Assembly: GCA_023245145.1 (NCBI GenBank)
Contig: JAHFKW010000002.1
Coordinates: forward strand, 1 to 54,600
Direction: 5' to 3'
DNA: 54,600 bases
DNA from: Candidatus Staskawiczbacteria bacterium
GTDB taxonomy: Bacteria; Patescibacteriota; Minisyncoccia; Minisyncoccales; Staskawiczbacteraceae
This document shows, one piece after another, positions 1-11,830 of the stretch. Every line of letters starts with the position of its first letter. The stretch's first letter is position 1. A program made the position numbers and the translations under genes. Under the pieces are notes generated by a model. The model saw only the letters and a program-made list of their open reading frames with translations. It was not told the DNA's origin and searched no databases.

Positions 1-576
1 AAGGCGCAAGCCGCTTTATGAATGGTCTGCGGTCTATCAGCTAGTTGGTGAGGTAATGGCTCACCAAGGCTATGACGGATAGGGGGCGTGAGAGCGCGAC
101 CCCCAAGAATGGCACTGCGACACGGGCCATACTCCTACGGGAGGCTGCAGTCGAGAATCTTCCGCAATGGACGAAAGTCTGACGGAGCGACATTTCGTGA
201 TGGATGAAGCCCTTCGGGGTGTAAACATCTTTTATCTGGGAAAAAGTTATTGATTGTACCAGATGAATAAGGGGATCCTAATTCTGTGCCAGCAGGAGCG
301 GTAATACAGAATCCCCGAGCGTTACCCGGATTTATTGGGCGTAAAGGGTTGGTAGGTGGTTTGGTAAGTTTGCGATTAAACCTCATCGGCTTAACCTTTG
401 AGCTGTTGCAAATACTGCTAGACTAAGAGGGCGTTAGAGGCAAACGGAACCGATGGAGTAGGGGTGAAATCCGTTGATATCATCGGGAACACCAAAAGCG
501 AAGGCAGTTTGCTGGGGCGACCCTGACACTGAACAACGAAAGCGTGGGGAGCAAAAAGGATTAACACCGTTGTGAC

Positions 577-722
577 GGAATTTCTAATTATTCTAATTGT
601 TCTAATTTCTAATCAAATTATAATTCTTGAATGTCTAATTTCTAAACGGTTTAGGAATTTTGGCATTAGGATTTGGTATTTGATTAGGTCAATTAGGTTA
701 ATTAGAATAATTAGAGATTTAC
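577..722. repeat. AT-rich inverted repeat R1 (family built on TTCTAATT/AATTAGAA)
   Basis: Left arm aatttctaattattctaattgttctaatttctaatcaaat; right arm tatttgattaggtcaattaggttaattagaataattagagattt is its approximate reverse complement. Confidence 0.7.
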
Positions 723-1171
723 GAACAATGGCCGGTAGGGTATACCGGAGATAGTCCCCAGGCGCAGTATTGTGTCCTGGAAAACTTGGCTGTATGCTGG
801 AAAATCCGTTGAAAAACGGACAATCAGCAGGCAACCTTAGTTTACTGAATGATGGGTTGGGTGACTCGTGATGAGACTGCTTGCCGGGGAGCTTAATCCC
901 GGAGGCGAGTTGCGCTAACTAACCCATAGCGAGTTCTTTGGAAAGTGCACTTCCAAGGAACTCGCTCCTATCATTCAGTAAATTAAGAGAGTCCTCAGAG
1001 ACTACACGCCGAGCATTGATGAATATGCGAGCCGAAGCCGAAAGGCATCCTCGCCATTTGCGAGGTCAGGAGGATTAGATACCCTCTTCGGCTCGCACCT
1101 TTTTATCGATGATGATATAGTCCGAACTATGCAGTAATGTATAGAGACGAGCAGAAATGCCTCGTCCACAA

Positions 1172-1240
1172 ATTTAGGCATTAAGATTTCAAAATTATTT
1201 AGAAATTAGAATAATTAGAAATTAGAAATTCCAAATTTGT
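1172..1240. repeat. AT-rich repeat R2, same family as R1, inverted relative to R1's left arm
   Basis: ttatttagaaattagaataattagaaattagaaatt near the intron 3' end. Confidence 0.6.
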
Positions 1241-2132
1241 AGCAACAAATTTGTAGATACCCTTGTAGTCCACGCTGTAAACGATGGATGCTGGCTATTG
1301 GCAGTGTCGACCCTGCCAGTGGCGAAGCTAACGCGTTAAGCATCCCGCCTGGGAAGTACGAACGCAAGTTTAAAACTCAAAGGAATAGACGGGGACTCAC
1401 ACAAGCAGTGGACCATGTGGCTTAATTCGACAACAAACGAAGAACCTTACCAGGACTAGAAACCCAACTGACCATTCTATGAAAGTAGAACTTCGCAAGA
1501 CAGTTGGGCAGGTGCTGCATGGTTGTCGTCAGTTCGTGTCTTGAGACGTACCGTTAATTCGGGTAACGAACGCAACCCTTGCTCTGTGTTTTACATGTCA
1601 CAGAGGACTGCCCGAGATAATTGGGAGGAAGGTGAGGATGACGCCAAATCAGCATGGCCCTTGATGTCCTGGGCTGCACACGTGGTACAATGGCCGGTAC
1701 AATGGGCCCGAACGCGCAAGCGGGAGGATAATCCCACCAAAGCCGGTCTCAGTTCGGATTGAGGGCTGAAACTCGCCCTCATGAAGCTGGAATTACTAGT
1801 AATCGCCAATCAGCTACGTGGCGATGAATACGTTCCTGAGTCTTGTACTCACCGCCCGTCAAGCCAAGCAAGCTGGGGATAGCCGAAGTTCCATGCAAAT
1901 GGGCCTAAGCTAGATTCAGTAAGAGGGGCTAAGTCGTAACAAGGCACGGGTAGCGGAAGCTGCTCGTGGATCATTTTTTTAAAAGTGTTGACTCTAGTTA
2001 AAGTCCAGAATTTAGATTTTAACTTTAAATGTTTTGCAGGTTTCTGGCTACGCCAGATCTCGCGCAGCGAGACATTTCAAAAACCAGCTATTTAAGACAG
2101 CTTTAAGAAACGAATACTTACCAAGAATAAAC

Positions 2133-2158
2133 ATTCCCGCCTAGCGGGTTTTGTTTTA
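2133..2158 (+). terminator. Short GC hairpin plus T-run after 16S
   Basis: CCCGCCTAGCGGGTTTTGTTTT. Confidence 0.5.
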
Positions 2159-2194
2159 CCTTGAAATTTTAAGAATTTGTAGTAACATGGGCGT

Positions 2195-2647
2195 ATGGCT
2201 CAATATTTCACCAAAGAAGGCTTAAAAACCCTGAAAGATGAATTGAAGGAATTAAAGACGACTGAAATGAGGCGGATTGTTAAGTTGATTGCCGAGGCAG
2301 CCTCTTTTGGCGATTTAAAAGAAAATTCGGCTTACCACGAAGCTCGCAATTCCAAATCATTTTTGTTGGGCCGAATTGAACAACTTGAAAACGCCATCAA
2401 TGATGCAATAATTAAGGATAAGATTGAAGACGGAAAAATTCAGATTGGTTCAAGGGTTAAAATGCTGTTTGCAGGAAAAGAAGAAGAGTATCAGATCACA
2501 TCGCCAACCGAATCTGACATTTTAAAAAATAAAATTTCGTACCAATCGCCGTTTGGACAAAAACTGATGGGGAAAAAGGCGGGCGAAGAATTCAATTACG
2601 AAGCGGGGGCAAAAAAGGTTAAAATTAAGGTGCTCTTTATAAAATAA
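2195..2647 (+). CDS. greA: Transcription elongation factor GreA
   Basis: 150 aa; GreA coiled-coil (LKDELKELKTTEMRRIVKLIAEAASFGDLKENSAYHEARN) and C-terminal SPFGQKLMGKKAGEEF. Confidence 0.95.
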   Translation: MAQYFTKEGLKTLKDELKELKTTEMRRIVKLIAEAASFGDLKENSAYHEARNSKSFLLGRIEQLENAINDAIIKDKIEDGKIQIGSRVKMLFAGKEEEYQITSPTESDILKNKISYQSPFGQKLMGKKAGEEFNYEAGAKKVKIKVLFIK

Positions 2648-2674
2648 AAACGCTTTTTAGGACGTTTTGCTGTG

Positions 2675-2745
2675 TGGACCCTGCGGGAGTCGAACCCGCC
2701 GCTCCTCATTGCAAATGAGGTGTGTTACCGATATACCAAGGGCCC
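2675..2745 (-). tRNA. tRNA-Ala (anticodon TGC)
   Basis: Reverse strand GGGCCCTTGG...CCTCATTTGCAATGAGG...GGGTTCGACTCCC...AGGGTCCA; G3:U70 present; CCA apparently not encoded. Confidence 0.9.
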
Positions 2746-2788
2746 ATTAGTAGTTATAGTATTACAATTAACGAAAAATTTCAACATT

Positions 2789-3277
2789 ATGAAAAAACTG
2801 TATCTTATCATCGGGGGAATTGTAGTTTTGGCAATTGTGGGCTTCATTGCCAAAGGACTTATTTTTGGAGCGCTCACTGGGGGACATTATCAGCAAAATC
2901 TAAATGGCACGCAAACCTATTCAAATAATGAGGGTTCGGTAACGGTGGGAAATAATGCCAGCATGCCAAGCGAATGGCCTTCTGATGCGCCAAGTAATTT
3001 TGCCGGAGGCAGTATCGTATTTTCAGGAAATTCAAATCCGCAAACCGGAAAAAATGGAGCAGTGGTTTCCTACACAGTGAAAGGCGGAACGATTCAGGGT
3101 GTTTCTGATTATTACAAAGCTCAACTGACTGCCAATGGCTGGACACTTCAGGGTAATTACAATGTTGCGGGTCAGGGAGTTTTGGCTGCCCAAAAAGATG
3201 GCCGAACCTTTGGCGTGAGCATTTCCGACAGTGGTAATGGGAGCGTCACCGTCACTGCTGGCTTGGAGTTACAGTAA
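2789..3277 (+). CDS. Membrane-anchored hypothetical protein
   Basis: MKKLYLIIGGIVVLAIVGFIAKGLI N-terminal TM. The upstream part of the tracked ORF overlaps the antisense tRNA, so the start was moved to 2789. Confidence 0.75.
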   Translation: MKKLYLIIGGIVVLAIVGFIAKGLIFGALTGGHYQQNLNGTQTYSNNEGSVTVGNNASMPSEWPSDAPSNFAGGSIVFSGNSNPQTGKNGAVVSYTVKGGTIQGVSDYYKAQLTANGWTLQGNYNVAGQGVLAAQKDGRTFGVSISDSGNGSVTVTAGLELQ

Positions 3278-3325
3278 AATTAAAGAAAAAAGCCTGCTTC
3301 CTTTTTGGGGTAGCAGGCTTTTGTT

Positions 3326-3963
3326 TTAGCCTCCCAATGCAATGGTTGTGCCATTAGGAGAACTAAACGATGCGGGATTTTTTACGGGTAATTTCCCTCC
3401 AAAAATTGTTAGGAAAAGTGCGCGTTTGCCAGGATCATCTTTATTTGCCTTAAGATAACCCTCAACAATGCCATATCCAACGTCGTCGTAAATGGAATAG
3501 CTGTGCACAGTGTACAGAGGTCCATGCAGTAAATTTTTTATAACATCTTTCTGACTTAGGATGTCTCTTTGGAGCACGGCTGCACCTTTCCAGCGCATAT
3601 TCTTAGCTACGCCATCATCGACCCTCAATACACCGCCCCACATTTCCTTGAGGAGTTGAGGAAGTCTTTCGTTAGCGATTTTTCCGCCTCCTGTGTAATT
3701 TTTTCTTGTTGGCGCCAAGCTTCGTTTGGGTCTTTCTCTCTTTCCTTAAATACCGTAATTTGCCTGATTTTTTTAGGCTCAGTGGTGAGTGAAGTAAGGA
3801 AAGAGTTTGTCGCCATGCCCGCCGGAAAGGCTAATAGAGAAGTCAGAGCAAACACCAGCAGAGTTAGTTTGATACGTTCCCGTGCGATTAGTCGTCCGTT
3901 GTCTTTTTTGGGTTCGTCGATGGTGATTACGTTTCTCTGACTTACATCGGATGATTTTTTCAC
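3326..3963 (-). pseudogene. Orphan membrane protein split by an apparent -1 frameshift (GTG start with AAAGGAG)
   Basis: ORFs 3625-3963 and 3326-3718 overlap and both read as protein-like; AAAGGAGctcgccGTG upstream; TM segment LTLLVFALTSLLAFPAGMA. Confidence 0.5.
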
Positions 3964-4085
3964 GGCGAGCTCCTTTGTTAAAGTGCCGGTTGACGCCAGT
4001 TCAATAGATCAAATTTACAATCGCTAAAGTTTAATTATTTTATCATACATTTGAAAAATCAGCCAATTTGTAATAGTATAATCAC

Positions 4086-5105
4086 ATGGCACTATCTATC
4101 GCAATCGTGGGGCTTCCAAACGTTGGTAAGTCCACGTTGTTTAAAACATTAACTAAAAAGGAAGTCTTGATTGCCAATTATCCTTTTGCCACGATTGACC
4201 CGAATGTGGGGGTGGTTTTGGTTCCTGATGAAAGAGTAGATAAGCTGGCTGAATTTTCCATTTCAGAGAAAAAGATTTATGCTACGGTGGAATTTGTGGA
4301 CATTGCCGGGTTGGTAAAAGGCGCCAGTGAAGGCGAGGGGTTGGGTAATAAATTTTTAGCCAATATTCGGGAAACCGATGCTATCGTCTATATTTTACGC
4401 GCCTTTAAAAATGATGACATTATCAACACGCAAAGTGACATTAATCCAATGCGTGACAAAGAAATTTTGGACGTGGAATTGATTTTAAAAGATTTGGAAA
4501 CGCTTCAAAAGTATAAAACCAAAGATGCTAAGGAAACTTCGGCGATAACCAAGGCCGTTAATTTTCTTAAACAACAGAAAGTGTTAGTTGAGCAATCTTG
4601 GAGTGAAGAAGAAAAATCAGTATTAAGAAATTTCCAATTGTTGACTCTCAAGCCAAGATTATATGTGTTAAACGGATCACGGGACGACTTGATAACTTTA
4701 CAACTTGATAACTTGACGAACTATCTTTTGATGAATATTGCGGAAGAATATGATTCAGCGGCGTTTACAAAAGAAGAAAGAATTGGGCTTGGGTTATCGG
4801 CGGAATCGGGGTTAGATATGTTAATTAAAAAATCGTATGAATTATTGGGTTTACAAACCTTTTTAACCACCGGGGAAACGGAAACGCGGGCGTGGACGAT
4901 TCATAAGGGCGACAAAGCTCCGCAGGCGGCAGGCGTAATTCATTCAGATTTTGAACAAAAGTTTGTGAAAGCGGAAGTAATTTTTTGGGAAGATTTGTTG
5001 AAAGTTGGTAACTATGCCAAAGCCCGCGAAACTGGATTAATCCGGACGGAAGGTAAGGAGTATGTGATAAAGGATGGAGATGTGGTTGAGTTTAAGCATG
5101 GGTAA
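4086..5105 (+). CDS. ychF: Ribosome-binding ATPase YchF (Obg-family GTPase)
   Basis: [53 protein letters not shown]-terminal TGS-like domain. Confidence 0.97.
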
Positions 5106-5172
5106 GAGGGTATAAATTTTGTAATAAAAAAATCCCGACGCTTGGTGGTCGGGATCTGGAGGGCTAGTTTTA

Positions 5173-5436
5173 TTATTGATTATCGAACTTTGCCCATTTT
5201 TTGACATTCTTTTTGTGTATTTGGCGTAGTCGTCGCCTTAGCGCGGCGGCTTCCTTGCGGGCTTCGGGTTGGGTTTCATAAGAAGAAGATGATTGCCATT
5301 TACCATTACCATCAAATATGGTAACCCCGAAACTCCAGCCACCTCCAGCCTGCTTCATGGGGCCGGGGTGGACTAAGACGTAGTGAGGTTCGATTCTGCG
5401 AGAAAGAGAATCCTGAACCATAATCGGCTTCAACAT
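5173..5436 (-). CDS. Orphan small protein (stand-alone gene unit)
   Basis: 87 aa ORF; GGAGA upstream; TTGACA-17-TAGAGT-like promoter at ~5483-5513; terminator ATCCCGAC...GTCGGGATTTTTTT downstream. Confidence 0.65.
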   Translation of the reverse strand: MLKPIMVQDSLSRRIEPHYVLVHPGPMKQAGGGWSFGVTIFDGNGKWQSSSSYETQPEARKEAAALRRRLRQIHKKNVKKWAKFDNQ

Positions 5437-5563
5437 GAATGGTCTCCAAAAAATATTGAGAATGGTGAGTACTGCTCTAATAATACTCTATTATATAATT
5501 CATAATCTGTCAAGTAAAATTTGAAATAAAAAATCCCACGGTGGCGAGTCGTGGGAAACTAGA

Positions 5564-5689
5564 CTAGTAGTGGAACAATCCGGCGCAGGCCATAACATCA
5601 GCAAAGACTTTACACGTCATAACCAGCGGTACCGTGACACAAAAATACTTCCACGCTAATCCAATACTTTCTTCATTGTAGCGATACAT
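5564..5689 (-). CDS. 41-aa orphan microprotein, absent from the ORF track
   Basis: AAGGAGcaaatcATG; translation MYRYNEESIGLAWKYFCVTVPLVMTCKVFADVMACAGLFHY; promoter TTGACA-17-TACTAT; terminator TCCCACG...CGTGGGATTTTTT. Confidence 0.55.
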   Translation of the reverse strand: MYRYNEESIGLAWKYFCVTVPLVMTCKVFADVMACAGLFHY

Positions 5690-5761
5690 GATTTGCTCCT
5701 TGATAGAGAGGCAGGTTCAGGTGTTGAGGCTATAGTAGTATGAATCATTAAACTTGTCAAC

Positions 5762-6055
5762 ATGAAATTTGAGATAAAAAACTTACAAAGCAATATTAAT
5801 ATTATTATGCGACAGATTGGTTACCAACCAGCTTACTTCCAAGAGCCTGGGGAATTTAGTGTAGTTAAAAAAATAATGGGAAGTGACTACCCCAGATTTC
5901 ACTTATATATAAAAAATACAGGAAGTGATTTTAGCTTTAATCTTCACCTTGACCAGAAAAAACCTTCGTATGAAGGTGCAACGGGACATAGTGGAGATTA
6001 TGATGGAGAGGTAGTGGAAGGCGAGGCAGAGAGAATTCAGCAGTTATTAAAGTAA
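5762..6055 (+). CDS. Hypothetical protein
   Basis: 97 aa intact ORF; composition like the core genes; no SD. Confidence 0.7.
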   Translation: MKFEIKNLQSNINIIMRQIGYQPAYFQEPGEFSVVKKIMGSDYPRFHLYIKNTGSDFSFNLHLDQKKPSYEGATGHSGDYDGEVVEGEAERIQQLLK

Positions 6056-6059
6056 AAAA

Positions 6060-6088
6060 AGTGCGCACTTTGGTAGTGCGCTTATAGG
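6060..6088. terminator. Bidirectional terminator between converging genes
   Basis: aaaaaaagtgcgcactttggtagtgcgctt stem. Confidence 0.6.
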
Positions 6089-6099
6089 AAAAATCACTG

Positions 6100-6318
6100 T
6101 CAAGGATTTATGGGAGTGATGGTCTCTGGATTAACCAGTCGCTCTTCGCTTGGATTTCGATTGTGAAACTTGATCCAATACTGTAGTTCTCCCGAAGCTG
6201 TCTTTGTCCACTCAGTCACTTTAGCTAGATCTCCGTTTCGCAGATCGTTGGGATCCTGAGATATATAAATTACAATCGTTCCAATCTTCAATCTCGTATT
6301 TGGATTTATCCCGTTCAT
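6100..6318 (-). CDS. Orphan small protein
   Basis: Start revised to ATG at 6318 (AAGGGGAatcatcATG). Promoter TTGACA-17-TATAGT. Confidence 0.6.
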   Translation of the reverse strand: MNGINPNTRLKIGTIVIYISQDPNDLRNGDLAKVTEWTKTASGELQYWIKFHNRNPSEERLVNPETITPINP

Positions 6319-6379
6319 GATGATTCCCCTTGTTTGTGAAAGTTGCTGAACAAATAAACTATAGTCTATAAATCTCAAT

Positions 6380-7030
6380 ATGTCAATAAAAATACTCTAC
6401 GAAGACAATCACATTATTGCGGTTGAAAAACCCGCAGGTGTTTTGAGTCAGGGAGACCGGTCGGGGCAAACCAGCATGTTTGGTTTGGTGAAAAAGTATT
6501 TAAAAGAGAAATATAAAAAACCGGGAAATGTGTTTTTGGGAATTGTGCATCGTTTAGATCGGCCGGTTTCTGGGATTTTATTGTTTGCTAAAACCAGCAA
6601 AGGTGCATCAAGATTATCCGAGCAATTCAGAAACAAGACGATTGAAAAAACGTATCACGCGTTGGTAGTTGGAAAACCGCCGAAAAATAGGGGAGTACTG
6701 GTGAATGTGATTGGCAAGGACGAAAAATTATTGAAGGCTAAAGAATATGGTGATGGGAAAGAGGCCGTGTTGCATTACGAATTGGTGAAAAGTAATGGGA
6801 AATATTCTTTACTGAAAATACAAATTCAAGGTGGGCAGTTTCATCAAATTCGGGTGCAACTTTCTTTGGCGGGGATGCCAATTGTGGGGGATGTAAAATA
6901 TAAAGGTGAAGCATGGAGTTTTGGAGAAGCAATTGCATTATGCGCCACGGGAATTTCATTCATACAAGCCACTGTGGATAAACGGGTTGACTTGTCTATT
7001 GCTATTCCATTTGAATTGGGGGATAATTAG
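6380..7030 (+). CDS. RluA-family pseudouridine synthase
   Basis: EDNHIIAVEKPAGVLSQGD; GIVHRLDRPVSGILLFAKTSKGASRLSEQFRN. Confidence 0.93.
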   Translation: MSIKILYEDNHIIAVEKPAGVLSQGDRSGQTSMFGLVKKYLKEKYKKPGNVFLGIVHRLDRPVSGILLFAKTSKGASRLSEQFRNKTIEKTYHALVVGKPPKNRGVLVNVIGKDEKLLKAKEYGDGKEAVLHYELVKSNGKYSLLKIQIQGGQFHQIRVQLSLAGMPIVGDVKYKGEAWSFGEAIALCATGISFIQATVDKRVDLSIAIPFELGDN

Positions 7031-7035
7031 AGAAT

Positions 7036-7143
7036 ATTCATTAAAATTTCTAATTATACTAATTAACCTAATTATACTAATTAACCTAATTAATCTAATC
7101 AAATATTAATGATTAGAAATTAGAACAATTAGAATAATTTTAA
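7036..7143. repeat. AT-rich inverted repeat R3 (same family as R1, R4, R5)
   Basis: aatttctaattatactaattaacctaattatactaattaacctaattaatctaatcaaatatt / aatgattagaaattagaacaattagaataattt. Confidence 0.7.
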
Positions 7144-7147
7144 AGCT

Positions 7148-7837
7148 ATGCTTTACAGTGATTGGTCGTTTGATATCATCCAACCGGTGGTGCAAGCATG
7201 TATTATGTTTGTGCTTAGCCTATTGTTGGCGGTCGTGGTGTTTGTAATTGGTTATTTAATTTCCGTGGCGATTGGCAGAATCGTTACTGAAATTTTAAAA
7301 GCCTTGAAATTTAATACGCTTTTTGCAAAAGAGGGTTGGGACAAGGCTTTAAAAACCGCTAATATTACCGTGCATCCGTCGGAATTTATCGGTGCGATTG
7401 TAAAGTGGGTGTTTGTGATTGTGTCGTTGTTGGTATCGGTGGATATTTTGGGGTTGGCGCAGTTTGGAGGAATTTTAACGCAGGTGTTGGATTATTTACC
7501 AAACGTAATTGTGGCCGCATTAATTTTTGTGGTGGCGGTGATTATTTCTGATATCATTGAAAAAATTATTCGCGTGGCGGTAGAAAGAATGAGGGTGGGG
7601 TATGGACATATTGCTTCCATGATTATTACCTGGGCTATTTGGATTTTTACTACTTTTTTAATTTTAGAACAGCTTTTGCCTAATAGTATTTTGATTCAAA
7701 CACTATACATGGCGATGGTGTATGGAATTGTTGGGGCGTTGGCGCTGGGAATTGCCATTGCTATTGGACTTGGTGGCAAAGAAACCGCCGGAGAAATTAT
7801 TTCAGAAATGTGGAAGAAAATTGAACATAAAAGTTAA
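7148..7837 (+). CDS. Multi-pass membrane protein with MscS-like conserved TM helices
   Basis: 229 aa, several TM helices, DYLPNVIVAALIFVVAVIISDIIEKIIR. Confidence 0.75.
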   Translation: MLYSDWSFDIIQPVVQACIMFVLSLLLAVVVFVIGYLISVAIGRIVTEILKALKFNTLFAKEGWDKALKTANITVHPSEFIGAIVKWVFVIVSLLVSVDILGLAQFGGILTQVLDYLPNVIVAALIFVVAVIISDIIEKIIRVAVERMRVGYGHIASMIITWAIWIFTTFLILEQLLPNSILIQTLYMAMVYGIVGALALGIAIAIGLGGKETAGEIISEMWKKIEHKS

Positions 7838-7851
7838 TTTTTTTGGATTAA

Positions 7852-7877
7852 AGGGCCCCGCTAAGCGGGGCCCTTTT
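7852..7877 (+). terminator. Rho-independent terminator
   Basis: GGGCCCCGCTAAGCGGGGCCCTTTT. Confidence 0.85.
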
Positions 7878-7888
7878 GCATTACCTAT

Positions 7889-7917
7889 TGACATACAATT
7901 ATAAATAGAATAAACTG
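7889..7917 (+). promoter_or_regulatory. Candidate sigma70 promoter upstream of 23S
   Basis: TTGACA-17-TAAACT. Confidence 0.5.
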
Positions 7918-8196
7918 GCTAGTAATGATGAATCAAATAAAAACCACAACAAAAAGCGGATAATTCTTTACCCATTTTTTAGGTTTTAGAAACCCGCTGC
8001 CAAGCGGTTTTTCATTTCATCAGCGAACCTTGTCAATTTTACCCTTATTAAAATATGCTCAAAAGGCATATACTTTTATTTGGTAAAGCAAATAAAAATA
8101 AGGTCTCTTAATCCATTTTAAGATGGGTCTTATTGGATTAAGAAAAGGTAACAAAAGCATATTCGCTGATAAATCTTTCACCAGATTTATTAGCAT

Positions 8197-8243
8197 CACA
8201 AGTTCATACGATACATAAAATCTGTATCTATTACTTACGCATA
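8197..8243 (+). promoter_or_regulatory. 5' arm of the 23S processing stem; 3' arm ~11752-11800
   Basis: cacaag..tac.ta.aaaatctgtatctatt..cttacgc matches the reverse complement of the downstream flank gcgtaagaaaatagatacagattttacgtatcttgtg. Confidence 0.75.
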
Positions 8244-8973
8244 CGATCCCGCTTTGCGGGATCATTAAAAAATAGGTTATAAGCGAATGGTGGATGCCTT
8301 GGGATATTACAGTGATGAAAGACGTGGCGTGCCTGCGATAAGCGTCGGGGAGGTGGCTAGCAACCTTTGATCCGGCGATTTCTGAATGGGGAAACCCTAT
8401 TGTGTGAATAACGCAATAATCTGTGCCGTAAGGCATGGAAGCTAACCCACTGAAGTGAAACATCTCAGTAAGTGGAGGAACATAAAACAATGTCTCGCGC
8501 AAGCGAGACGCATTCCCTTAGTAGTGGCGAGCGAAAAGGGAGCAGTCTAAACCAGAATTTATTCTGGGGTTGTAAGGGTTTAACGTCGGGGGCATTACTG
8601 TGCTCTGCACAGAATATTGAAATATTTAAACATTTAAATATTCCGCGCAGGGCGCGGTAATGAATTCCGAGGGAGAACAAAAAGGTAAGTTATTAAAAGA
8701 AGCACCCTGGAAAGGGGCACCATAGAGGGTAATAGTCCCGTACTCTAAAATAATATTACGCTCCTTGTTAAGTTTCTTAAGTACTGTCGGGAATGATAAC
8801 CTGGCAGGAAGCAGGCCGAACTATCGGCCAAGACTAAATATGTAATATCACCGATAGTGAACCAGTACCGTGAGGGAAAGGTGAAAAGTAGGGGGATGAC
8901 CCCGGTGAAATAGAACCTGAAACCATTTGCTTACAAAGAGTCGGAGCGGCCACATCACACTGTGTGTGATACG

Positions 8974-9042
8974 GAATTGTTCTAATTACTCTAATTAACC
9001 TAATTATTCTAATCAAATGCTAAATTACCAAAATTCAAAATA
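8974..9042. repeat. AT-rich repeat R4 (left arm of the 23S insertion)
   Basis: aattgttctaattactctaattaacctaattattctaatcaaatgctaaattaccaaaattcaaaa. Confidence 0.75.
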
Positions 9043-9046
9043 AAAA

Positions 9047-9075
9047 AACGGCACCAATTTTTGGTCGGTGCCTCG
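9047..9075 (-). terminator. Terminator of the antisense gene in the 23S insertion
   Basis: Reverse strand GGCACCGACCAAAAATTGGTGCCGTTTTTTTA. Confidence 0.8.
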
Positions 9076-9099
9076 TTGTTGCGATGAGAAAAAGATATT

Positions 9100-9288
9100 T
9101 TACTTTTTCTCGCGCCTGAAGAATGCGATGTATGTTTCAGTAAGTCCGATAGCTTGACACACTGAAACTAACTCCCAGCCTTCCTGCGCCATTTCATTCG
9201 CTGTATCAACTACCCCATCTTCGATGTCTTCAATTTCATTTGAACCGACGACACCGTAGTCGATAAGCATTTTGCAGTGTTCGTACAT
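9100..9288 (-). CDS. 62-aa small protein (DUF4177-like by eye), antisense inside the 23S insertion
   Basis: Perfect SD AAAGGAGGaaaacATG; EMAQEGWELVSVCQAIGLTETYIAFFRREKK resembles DUF4177-type proteins; TTGACA promoter-like sequence at ~9330-9352. Confidence 0.75.
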   Translation of the reverse strand: MYEHCKMLIDYGVVGSNEIEDIEDGVVDTANEMAQEGWELVSVCQAIGLTETYIAFFRREKK

Positions 9289-9354
9289 GTTTTCCTCCTT
9301 TGAGTAGGGAAACTAACTGGTTATTAATCTATCATATTATAGTTTTAATGTCAA

Positions 9355-9424
9355 GTTTGAATTTTGGAAATTAGTCATTGGTATTTGATTAGAATAATTA
9401 GAACAATTAGAAATTAGAATAATT
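9355..9424. repeat. AT-rich repeat R5 (right arm, inverted relative to R4)
   Basis: gaattttggaaattagtcattggtatttgattagaataattagaacaattagaaattagaataattt. Confidence 0.75.
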
Positions 9425-11457
9425 TCACATCGCGCTTAGCGTGATGTGGCTGTGACGGCGTGCTTTTTGCAGAACGAGCCAACGAGTTTATCTATTCGGC
9501 TTGTCTAAGCCCTTACGGGGTGAAGGCGTAGCGAAAGCGAGTGTTAATAGCGCGTTTGCCGAATGTATAAGACCCGAAGCGTGACGAGCTTACCATGTGC
9601 AGGCTGAAGTCTGTAGAAATACGGATGGAGGGCCGAACCCGTGAGTCGTGCAATCCTCTGGGATGACGTGTGGTAAGGAGTGAAAAGCTAATCGAGTTAC
9701 GTAATAGCTGGTTCTTCCCGAAACAGCTTTGGGGCTGGCGTCTGTTAAGATAGTATAGGGGGGTAGAGCACTGAATCGAAACTCTTGCCGCAAGGCAGAT
9801 TTTCGAATCAAACTCCGAATACCCTATGCCGTAAACAGGCAGTTAGACCGTGGGGGCTAAGCTCCATGGTCAAAAGAGTAACAGCTCAGATCATAGTCTA
9901 AGGTCCCTAAATTATATTAAGTGTTATGAAGGAAGTGTTTTGTCCTCGACAGGCAGGAAGTTAGCTTAGAGGTAGCTATCTTTTAAAGAGTGTGTAACAA
10001 CTCACTGTCCAAACTTTGCGGATTTCCGCGAGGAGGGACGAAATGCGCCAAAGATTTCCGGGGCTAAATATAATACCGAAGACATGGACTTATTTTTCCT
10101 TCGGGAAAAATAATTGGTAGGGAAGCGTTCCTATCGCAGTGAAGCAGGAGAGTAATCGACTGTGGAGCGTTAGGAAGTGAGAATGTTGGCCTGAGTAACC
10201 GCAATAGGGGTGAAAGCCCCCTACACCGAAAGTCCAAGGTTTCCTTGGCAATGGTATTCAACCAAGGGTTAGTCGGTCCTAAGGCGTATCCGAAAGGAGT
10301 AACTGATGGACAATGGGTTAATATCCCCATACTTGGATGCATTTCCATGACGTTGCGCATTGTAGTAATTTGGGTGGATAACTGGATTTCACATTCTGAC
10401 TTTTAAGAGTTAAGAAGAGTTGGCAGAAGTGTCAGCAATCCAAGTGAGCGCAGTGCCTAGAAAAGGCGTCGTGGGCGTGGTGCATTCAAACCGTACCGCA
10501 AACCGACACAGGTGGACAAGCGTAAGTATGCTAAGGTGAACGGGTGAGACCTCTTTAAGGAACTAGGCAAACAAGTGGACGTAAGTTCGCAATATGTCCT
10601 GCCCTTTTTCGCAAGAAAAAGGGCCGCAGCTACTGTCTCTCTACCGACTGTTTATCAAAAACACAGCTCCCTGCTAACTCGCAAGAGGATGTATAGGGGG
10701 TGAGGCCTGACCAGTGCTGGAATGTTAAGTTTGGGAGTCCAAGCCGCAAGGTTTGGGCCCACTGAATGAAGCACCAGTGAACGTCGGCGATAACTATAAT
10801 CGTCCAAAGGTAGCGTAATCCCTTGCCGGGTAAGTTCCGGCCCGCATGAATGGCTTAACGAGTGGAGAACTGTCTCAAAGAGGCGCCCGGTGAAAATGCA
10901 ATACCAGTGAAGATGCTGGTTACCTGCGGCTAGACGGAAAGACCCCGGAAGCTTTACTGTAGTTAGATATTGAATTTTAATTTTTGATACGTAGCGTAGT
11001 GGTGAGCCTTTGAAGCGGAATTTTCGGATTCCGTGGAGGCGCCGATGAAACAGCCATTTTTAAAAGTTAATATTCTAATCCACTTAACTGTGGTCACAGT
11101 GTTTAATGGGCAGTTTAAATGGGGCATTTGCCTCCTAAAGAGTAATGGAGGCGTTTAAAGGTTGGTTAGGTTCGGATGGAAATCGAACCGATAGGGCAAA
11201 GCCATACACCAGCTTTACTGCAAGACGGCTATGTCGCGCAGTTGCGAAAGCAGAACTTAGTGAACCGACGTGATTTCATAGGAAACACGAAGATCATCAG
11301 CCAAAAGCTACTCCGGGGATAACAGGCTAGTAGAGCCCGAGCGTCCATAGCGACGGCTCTGTTCGGCACCTCGATGTCGGCTCAACTTATCCTGGGGGTG
11401 GAGCAGCTCCCAAGGGTCGTGCTGTTCGCACGTTAAAAAGTTACGTGAGCTGGGTTC

Positions 11458-11488
<31 letters not shown>

Positions 11489-11830
11489 ACCGCAGGCGTT
11501 GAGTTTTGAGGAGATTTGTTCCTAGTACGAGAGGACCGGAATGAACCAACCTCTGGTGTACCAATTGTTCCGCCAGGAGCATTGTTGGGTAGCTACGTTG
11601 GGAATAGATAAACGCTGAAAGCATATAAGCGTGAAACTAACTCCAAGATGAGAACTCTTAGATTTCCCGAAGATTACGGGATTGATAGGCTCCAGGTGTA
11701 AGCTCCGCAAGGAGTTCAGCCGGGGAGTACTAATAAATCATTATATTTTTTAGCGTAAGAAAATAGATACAGATTTTACGTATCTTGTGACTATGCGATT
11801 GTTATCTTTAACACCACAGATTGAGTTCTG

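Follow-up and report, generated by a model that had tools for sequence, protein, structure and literature searches.

A small antisense gene inside a helix 25 insert of a Staskawiczbacteria 23S rRNA gene, and its apparent exchange between species

Inserts in rRNA genes are usually regarded as selfish introns or inert spacers. In the window, by which we mean the whole 54,600-nucleotide stretch of Candidatus Staskawiczbacteria DNA analysed here, the 23S rRNA gene is interrupted by about 500 nt that hold a protein gene on the opposite strand. What kind of element is this insert, and how could a gene directed against rRNA synthesis be accommodated within it?

The interrupted gene is an intact bacterial 23S rRNA gene (Table 1). 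Alignment to E. coli rrlB placed the insert between E. coli positions 540 and 551, at the tip of helix 25, where the first-pass annotation of this DNA had also located an insertion. That annotation had delimited the insert as 8974-9424; its core is correct, but both terminal hairpins had been missed. Helix 25 is, with helix 45, a location of 23S intervening sequences (IVSs), and the site is empty in two genomes of the same genus (G014 and G016). Rfam recognised no intron at helix 25 and does detect one in the 16S rRNA gene of the same window. We rejected a group I intron with a homing endonuclease, as Rfam and Pfam returned neither a catalytic core nor a LAGLIDADG/GIY-YIG ORF, and likewise a transposon, as the insert contains no transposase. 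The layout of the locus is itself unusual: 6.4 kb (1909-8266) separate the 16S and 23S genes, a stretch that holds several protein genes as well as a tRNA-Ala on the minus strand.

Table 1. Features of the helix 25 insert and its nested gene (positions in the window).
Feature	Position	Strand	Basis
23S rRNA gene	8267..11753	+	Rfam RF02541, 2259 bits
Helix 25 insert, IVS-type, in place of the helix 25 tip	8948..9449	+	mapping to E. coli 23S 540/551
Left terminal hairpin, CATCACACTGTGTGTGAT type	8949..8974	+	alignment of 18 inserts, covariation; rRNA genes only
Left stem arm, built of CTAATTATT repeats with a 9-nt period, core CCAAAATTCAAAA	8975..9042	+	inverted repeats; dispersed genomic repeat family
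Terminator of the nested gene, intrinsic, 8-bp stem and 7 T	9040..9072	-	terminator scan
Cargo gene, 62-aa DUF4177-like protein, ATG start	9100..9288	-	ORF, Pfam, relatives
Shine-Dalgarno sequence, AAAGGAGG	9294..9301	-	sequence
Promoter of the nested gene, sigma-70-type, TTGACA-17-TAGATT, TG before the -10	9326..9354	-	sequence; matched by TTGACA-17 promoters in the four remaining antisense cargo genes
Right arm of the long stem	9356..9425	+	inverted repeats, fold, dispersed repeat family
Right terminal hairpin, CATCGCGCTTAGCGTGATG type	9426..9450	+	alignment of 18 inserts, covariation

From the outside inwards, the insert consists of a terminal hairpin on each side, complementary arms built of periodic repeats, and a loop with one minus-strand gene. 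The inverted repeats that had been proposed to enclose it are present as three pairs of arms, at 8949-8990/9409-9450 (76% complementary), 8990-9023/9378-9411 (85%) and 9016-9039/9356-9379 (83%). In the predicted RNA fold of 8936-9463 these arms make one continuous stem around the loop, and the predicted energy of this 528-nt RNA is -188.7 kcal/mol, against -113 +/- 5 in shuffles (z = -14.9), in agreement with the long stem suggested earlier for the rRNA strand. Inverted repeats, folding and covariation (see below) all point to the complementary ends and extended stem that characterise 23S rRNA IVSs.

The arms are members of a palindromic repeat family dispersed through the intergenic regions of the source genome, in which the insert used as query gives 41 local matches. 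Gene-free palindromic repeats lie between protein genes at 7045-7134 and on contigs C6, C13 and C14 of this genome (G000). We also considered that cargo might ride on the dispersed palindromic repeats everywhere; this was rejected for the source genome, whose intergenic copies, where examined, are gene-free palindromes or half copies. The inserts of sister genomes have arms of other repeat types. In the 16S gene of the window (555-1235), an insert flanked by the same CTAATTATT-type palindromic repeats as the 23S insert contains a group I intron (676-1144, Rfam 73 bits), and in G016 such an intron interrupts the 23S gene towards its 3' end (L100, 1796-2236).

The terminal hairpins were found only in rRNA genes. 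CATCACACTGnGTGTGATG and CATCGCGCnTAGCGTGATG are the motifs on which the hairpins of 18 inserts align; these inserts come from several 23S sites and from a single 16S site. The long-range pairing of the two ends covaries, with 97% of the cells of the outer helix paired and two-sided changes in 7 of 10 pairs, while slid controls reach 13-53%. The local hairpins are supported by covariation as well, so that either fold is possible. Across 247 genomes the exact left motif has 12 matches, all within six genomes that bear these rRNA inserts, and its reversed controls have none; with one mismatch allowed, the search within the genus gave a single non-rRNA match, in a stretch that reads as protein-coding. 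The window insert belongs to a family of inserts, specific to rRNA genes, that share conserved terminal hairpins and occupy several sites in 16S and 23S genes. Members without a gene, bearing these hairpins, occur at other 23S positions (L101 in G019, L102 in G017) and in the 16S gene of G017 (L130).

Inside the loop, we confirmed the antisense promoter-like element, Shine-Dalgarno (SD) sequence and terminator described in the first-pass annotation; the terminator stem lies at 9072-9050 on the minus strand and is followed by GTTTTTTTAT. Since promoter, ORF and terminator all fall within the insert, the expected transcript would cover no mature rRNA sequence. On the rRNA strand, a scan of the window insert found no terminator-like site.

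To place this gene among its relatives, we turn to a survey of 247 genomes of the order, in 135 of which the helix 25 flanks were matched. Like inserts, for which a search in related 23S genes had been proposed, were found at the same site in six other genomes of the genus. The distribution is sporadic, as in other 23S IVSs: of the nine 23S genes from the genus, seven contain a helix 25 insert and five contain one that bears a gene. Among the surveyed genomes, with flank matches in 135 of 247 and the split sites read in part, gene-bearing helix 25 inserts were confined to this genus. Most named records that show this insert boundary are Candidatus Staskawiczbacteria, and several of them have a helix 25 insert identical to one in a survey genome of the same genus or family.

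The five helix 25 genes encode proteins of 62 aa (the window), 65 aa (G019) and about 50 aa (G012, across an assembly gap) in antisense, and of 98 aa (G009) and 86 aa (G017) in sense. Protein comparison found them mutually unrelated. Counting the rRNA flank, the outermost 60-160 nt at either end of the inserts show 73-95% identity across the five species. A second gene-bearing insert lies near E. coli position 230 in G009 and G012, both genes being antisense (59 and 63 aa). Outside the ORF these two inserts share 80-81% identity, with arms and promoter conserved; the ORFs reach 42% in an optimised alignment and are not homologous as proteins. Furthermore, the helix 25 arms of G012 resemble those of the E. 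coli 230 site (82%), so that one insert type occupies two sites. Judging from these sequences, the gene in the loop appears to be exchangeable between species and to be tolerated on either strand, and the Staskawiczbacteria-type 23S gene seems to be a docking site for swappable genes. The first-pass annotation had missed both the insert family and the exchangeable cargo because relatives are needed to see them.

On the other hand, the insert might be an ordinary IVS in which the ORF is an unexpressed passenger or a decaying remnant. IVSs are removed by RNase III, and the ORF of the Coxiella IVS, which lies on the sense strand, seems to be unexpressed and decaying, its SD being severed by RNase III (PMC4990558). 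Moreover, the majority of the CPR helix 25 inserts surveyed have no gene. However, each of the seven large inserts has, wholly inside its loop, an ORF with an SD before it; of these unrelated ORFs, six are complete and uninterrupted and one (G012 helix 25) crosses the assembly gap. At helix 25 across the order, such an SD-preceded ORF was absent from all 30 smaller or empty sites examined. When such inserts are dinucleotide-shuffled, 1-4% of the shuffles contain an ATG ORF of 55 aa or more together with an SD core of 5 nt or more; ORF, SD and a promoter of at least 10/12 arose jointly in 0 of 10,500, and four of the five antisense cargo genes have this full set. The fifth is again the gap-spanning gene of G012, with a TTGACA-17-TAGGAT promoter and a T-run terminator. 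As promoter and terminator also track the strand of the gene, we regard the passenger explanation as unlikely.

All five antisense genes have an exact TTGACA, 17-nt spacing and a T-rich terminator, those of G019 and of G012 helix 25 escaping a simple scan because their stems are long or imperfect. In both sense-cargo inserts (G009 and G017 helix 25) an SD is present and no promoter was found when looked for; the T tails after their 3' hairpins are interrupted, and a simple scan nevertheless classes these hairpins as terminator-like. This pattern fits a model in which sense cargo is expressed as part of the rRNA transcript and must let its synthesis continue; with five genes against two, and such tails, it is only suggestive. 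A functional terminator in a sense gene would stop rRNA synthesis and would count against the model.

The description of the 62-aa ORF as DUF4177-like is supported by a match to Pfam DUF4177 (PF13783, E = 1.1e-4), although at 22.7 bits it falls below the 25-bit cut-off. The protein shares its size and an EGWEL...RRE pattern with DUF4177 proteins such as YjzH and PEG 446, while its N-terminal strand motif is weak. A single-sequence AlphaFold model was poor (pLDDT 56.5). One stand-alone relative exists in the genus (G015, 49% identity over the aligned part) and one viral contig holds a 37% match; no close relative was found in the searched genome contigs or annotated phages. The other cargo proteins gave nothing significant in Pfam or PHROGs, and genome searches with three of them returned borderline matches (E 4e-4 to 0.009), none convincing. 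Known DUF4177 members are stand-alone genes (PMC11322243, PMC12456014), whereas this one lies inside a 23S insert; PEG 446 was reported to be antibacterial (PMC11322243), and YjzH of B. subtilis is an RNA-binding candidate (PMC12456014). Just upstream of the SD, a GTTCTTT leader recurs in several cargo and stand-alone DUF4177 genes (L093 4743-4766, L113, L117), in some places with a hairpin, and shared regulation of the two groups is possible.

Alternatively, the cargo protein could serve the insert itself, as a mobility, homing or rRNA-processing factor comparable to LAGLIDADG or 23S_rRNA_IVP proteins. According to the main text of Tsurumaki et al. (2024, PMC11270868), the domains coded in CPR rRNA inserts are nearly all homing endonucleases, plus IVP, the former making up 99% of domain-bearing ORFs in the 23S inserts; the candidate RNA binding of YjzH would also suit such a role. 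Against it, the proteins are about 50-98 aa long and mutually unrelated, profile searches (Pfam, PHROGs) gave no endonuclease or IVP match, stand-alone DUF4177 relatives with their own SD and terminator occur elsewhere in the order, and gene-free inserts of the same family are already present at several sites. We consider this role improbable. For the window, an IVS coding for IVP/S23 was rejected as well: the ORF is antisense, not a sense-strand four-helix-bundle IVP, and its only Pfam match is DUF4177. Finally, misassembly is unlikely because inserts of this type recur at this position in six further genomes of the genus, each assembled independently, and an artefact of assembly or binning that fused a foreign gene to the 23S contig is scarcely credible, even if the window belongs to a 14-contig assembly (626 kb), as five independently assembled genomes have equivalent gene-bearing inserts with matching ends and covarying stems.

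The helix 25/45 IVSs of Salmonella, Campylobacter, Leptospira and Coxiella share the site, complementary termini and long stem of the window insert, as well as its sporadic distribution and lack of an intron core. Their known ORFs encode sense-strand S23/IVP proteins (Coxiella), whereas here we find mostly antisense, self-promoted, unrelated small genes, and excision by RNase III is presumed by analogy. The main text of PMC11270868 reports that CPR rRNA genes are rich in inserts, with short non-intron ones at IVS positions (23IS2, 23IS4). Our insert belongs with these short non-intron inserts of CPR 16S and 23S genes; that main text makes no mention of inverted repeats, opposite-strand genes or exchangeable cargo. 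Phage morons and integron gene cassettes offer an analogy only, in that they too are compact units running from promoter to terminator, or small ORFs exchanged at one fixed dock; the present genes differ in that they have no phage context and their dock is an rRNA hairpin. We found no report of exchangeable or antisense gene cargo in rRNA IVSs in the open-access literature. CPR rRNA inserts and RNase III-excised helix 25 IVSs are already known, and exchangeable, mostly antisense, non-homing cargo is apparently new, as far as the searchable literature goes.

Considering all the above results, we think it probable that the insert is a 23S IVS of a genus-level family that invades rRNA hairpins, is removed by RNase III and houses an exchangeable gene. 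In the precursor rRNA, the complementary ends and arms would pair into one long double-stranded stem at helix 25, as folding and covariation suggest. As in known IVSs, RNase III probably cleaves this stem; consequently, the insert would be lost without ligation, leaving the 23S rRNA in pieces. Released from ribosomal constraint, the loop could accommodate one compact gene, in the window a seemingly complete antisense transcription unit from promoter to terminator that may be translated. As its transcript would start and end within the insert, it would be complementary to discarded RNA only and not to mature 23S rRNA. Sister species have a different, unrelated small gene at the same dock. Antisense cargo brings its own promoter, whereas sense cargo lacks one and would depend for its expression on the rRNA transcript or on the loop once excised. 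Exchange could occur via recombination in the shared arms and rRNA flanks, and heavy rRNA transcription should lower the expression of antisense cargo. The data are also consistent with the first-pass suggestion that antisense transcription would oppose rRNA synthesis. Our best guess is that the cargo consists of small genes, either useful to the host or selfish, for which the insert provides a tolerated site in strongly conserved surroundings.

A more far-reaching proposal, which we put forward tentatively and hold to be rather doubtful, is that helix 25 and the E. coli 230 site form a dock for cargo exchange, where small autonomous genes are swapped into a conserved rRNA frame that RNase III can remove and antisense cargo is expressed inversely to ribosome synthesis, through transcriptional interference and pairing with the excised RNA. 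If true, a minimal genome would be gaining genes at its most heavily transcribed locus, through such a frame with replaceable, self-promoted and mostly antisense genes. One could then also test directly how a cell tolerates or uses convergent transcription across an rRNA gene, and what purpose rRNA inserts serve in CPR bacteria.
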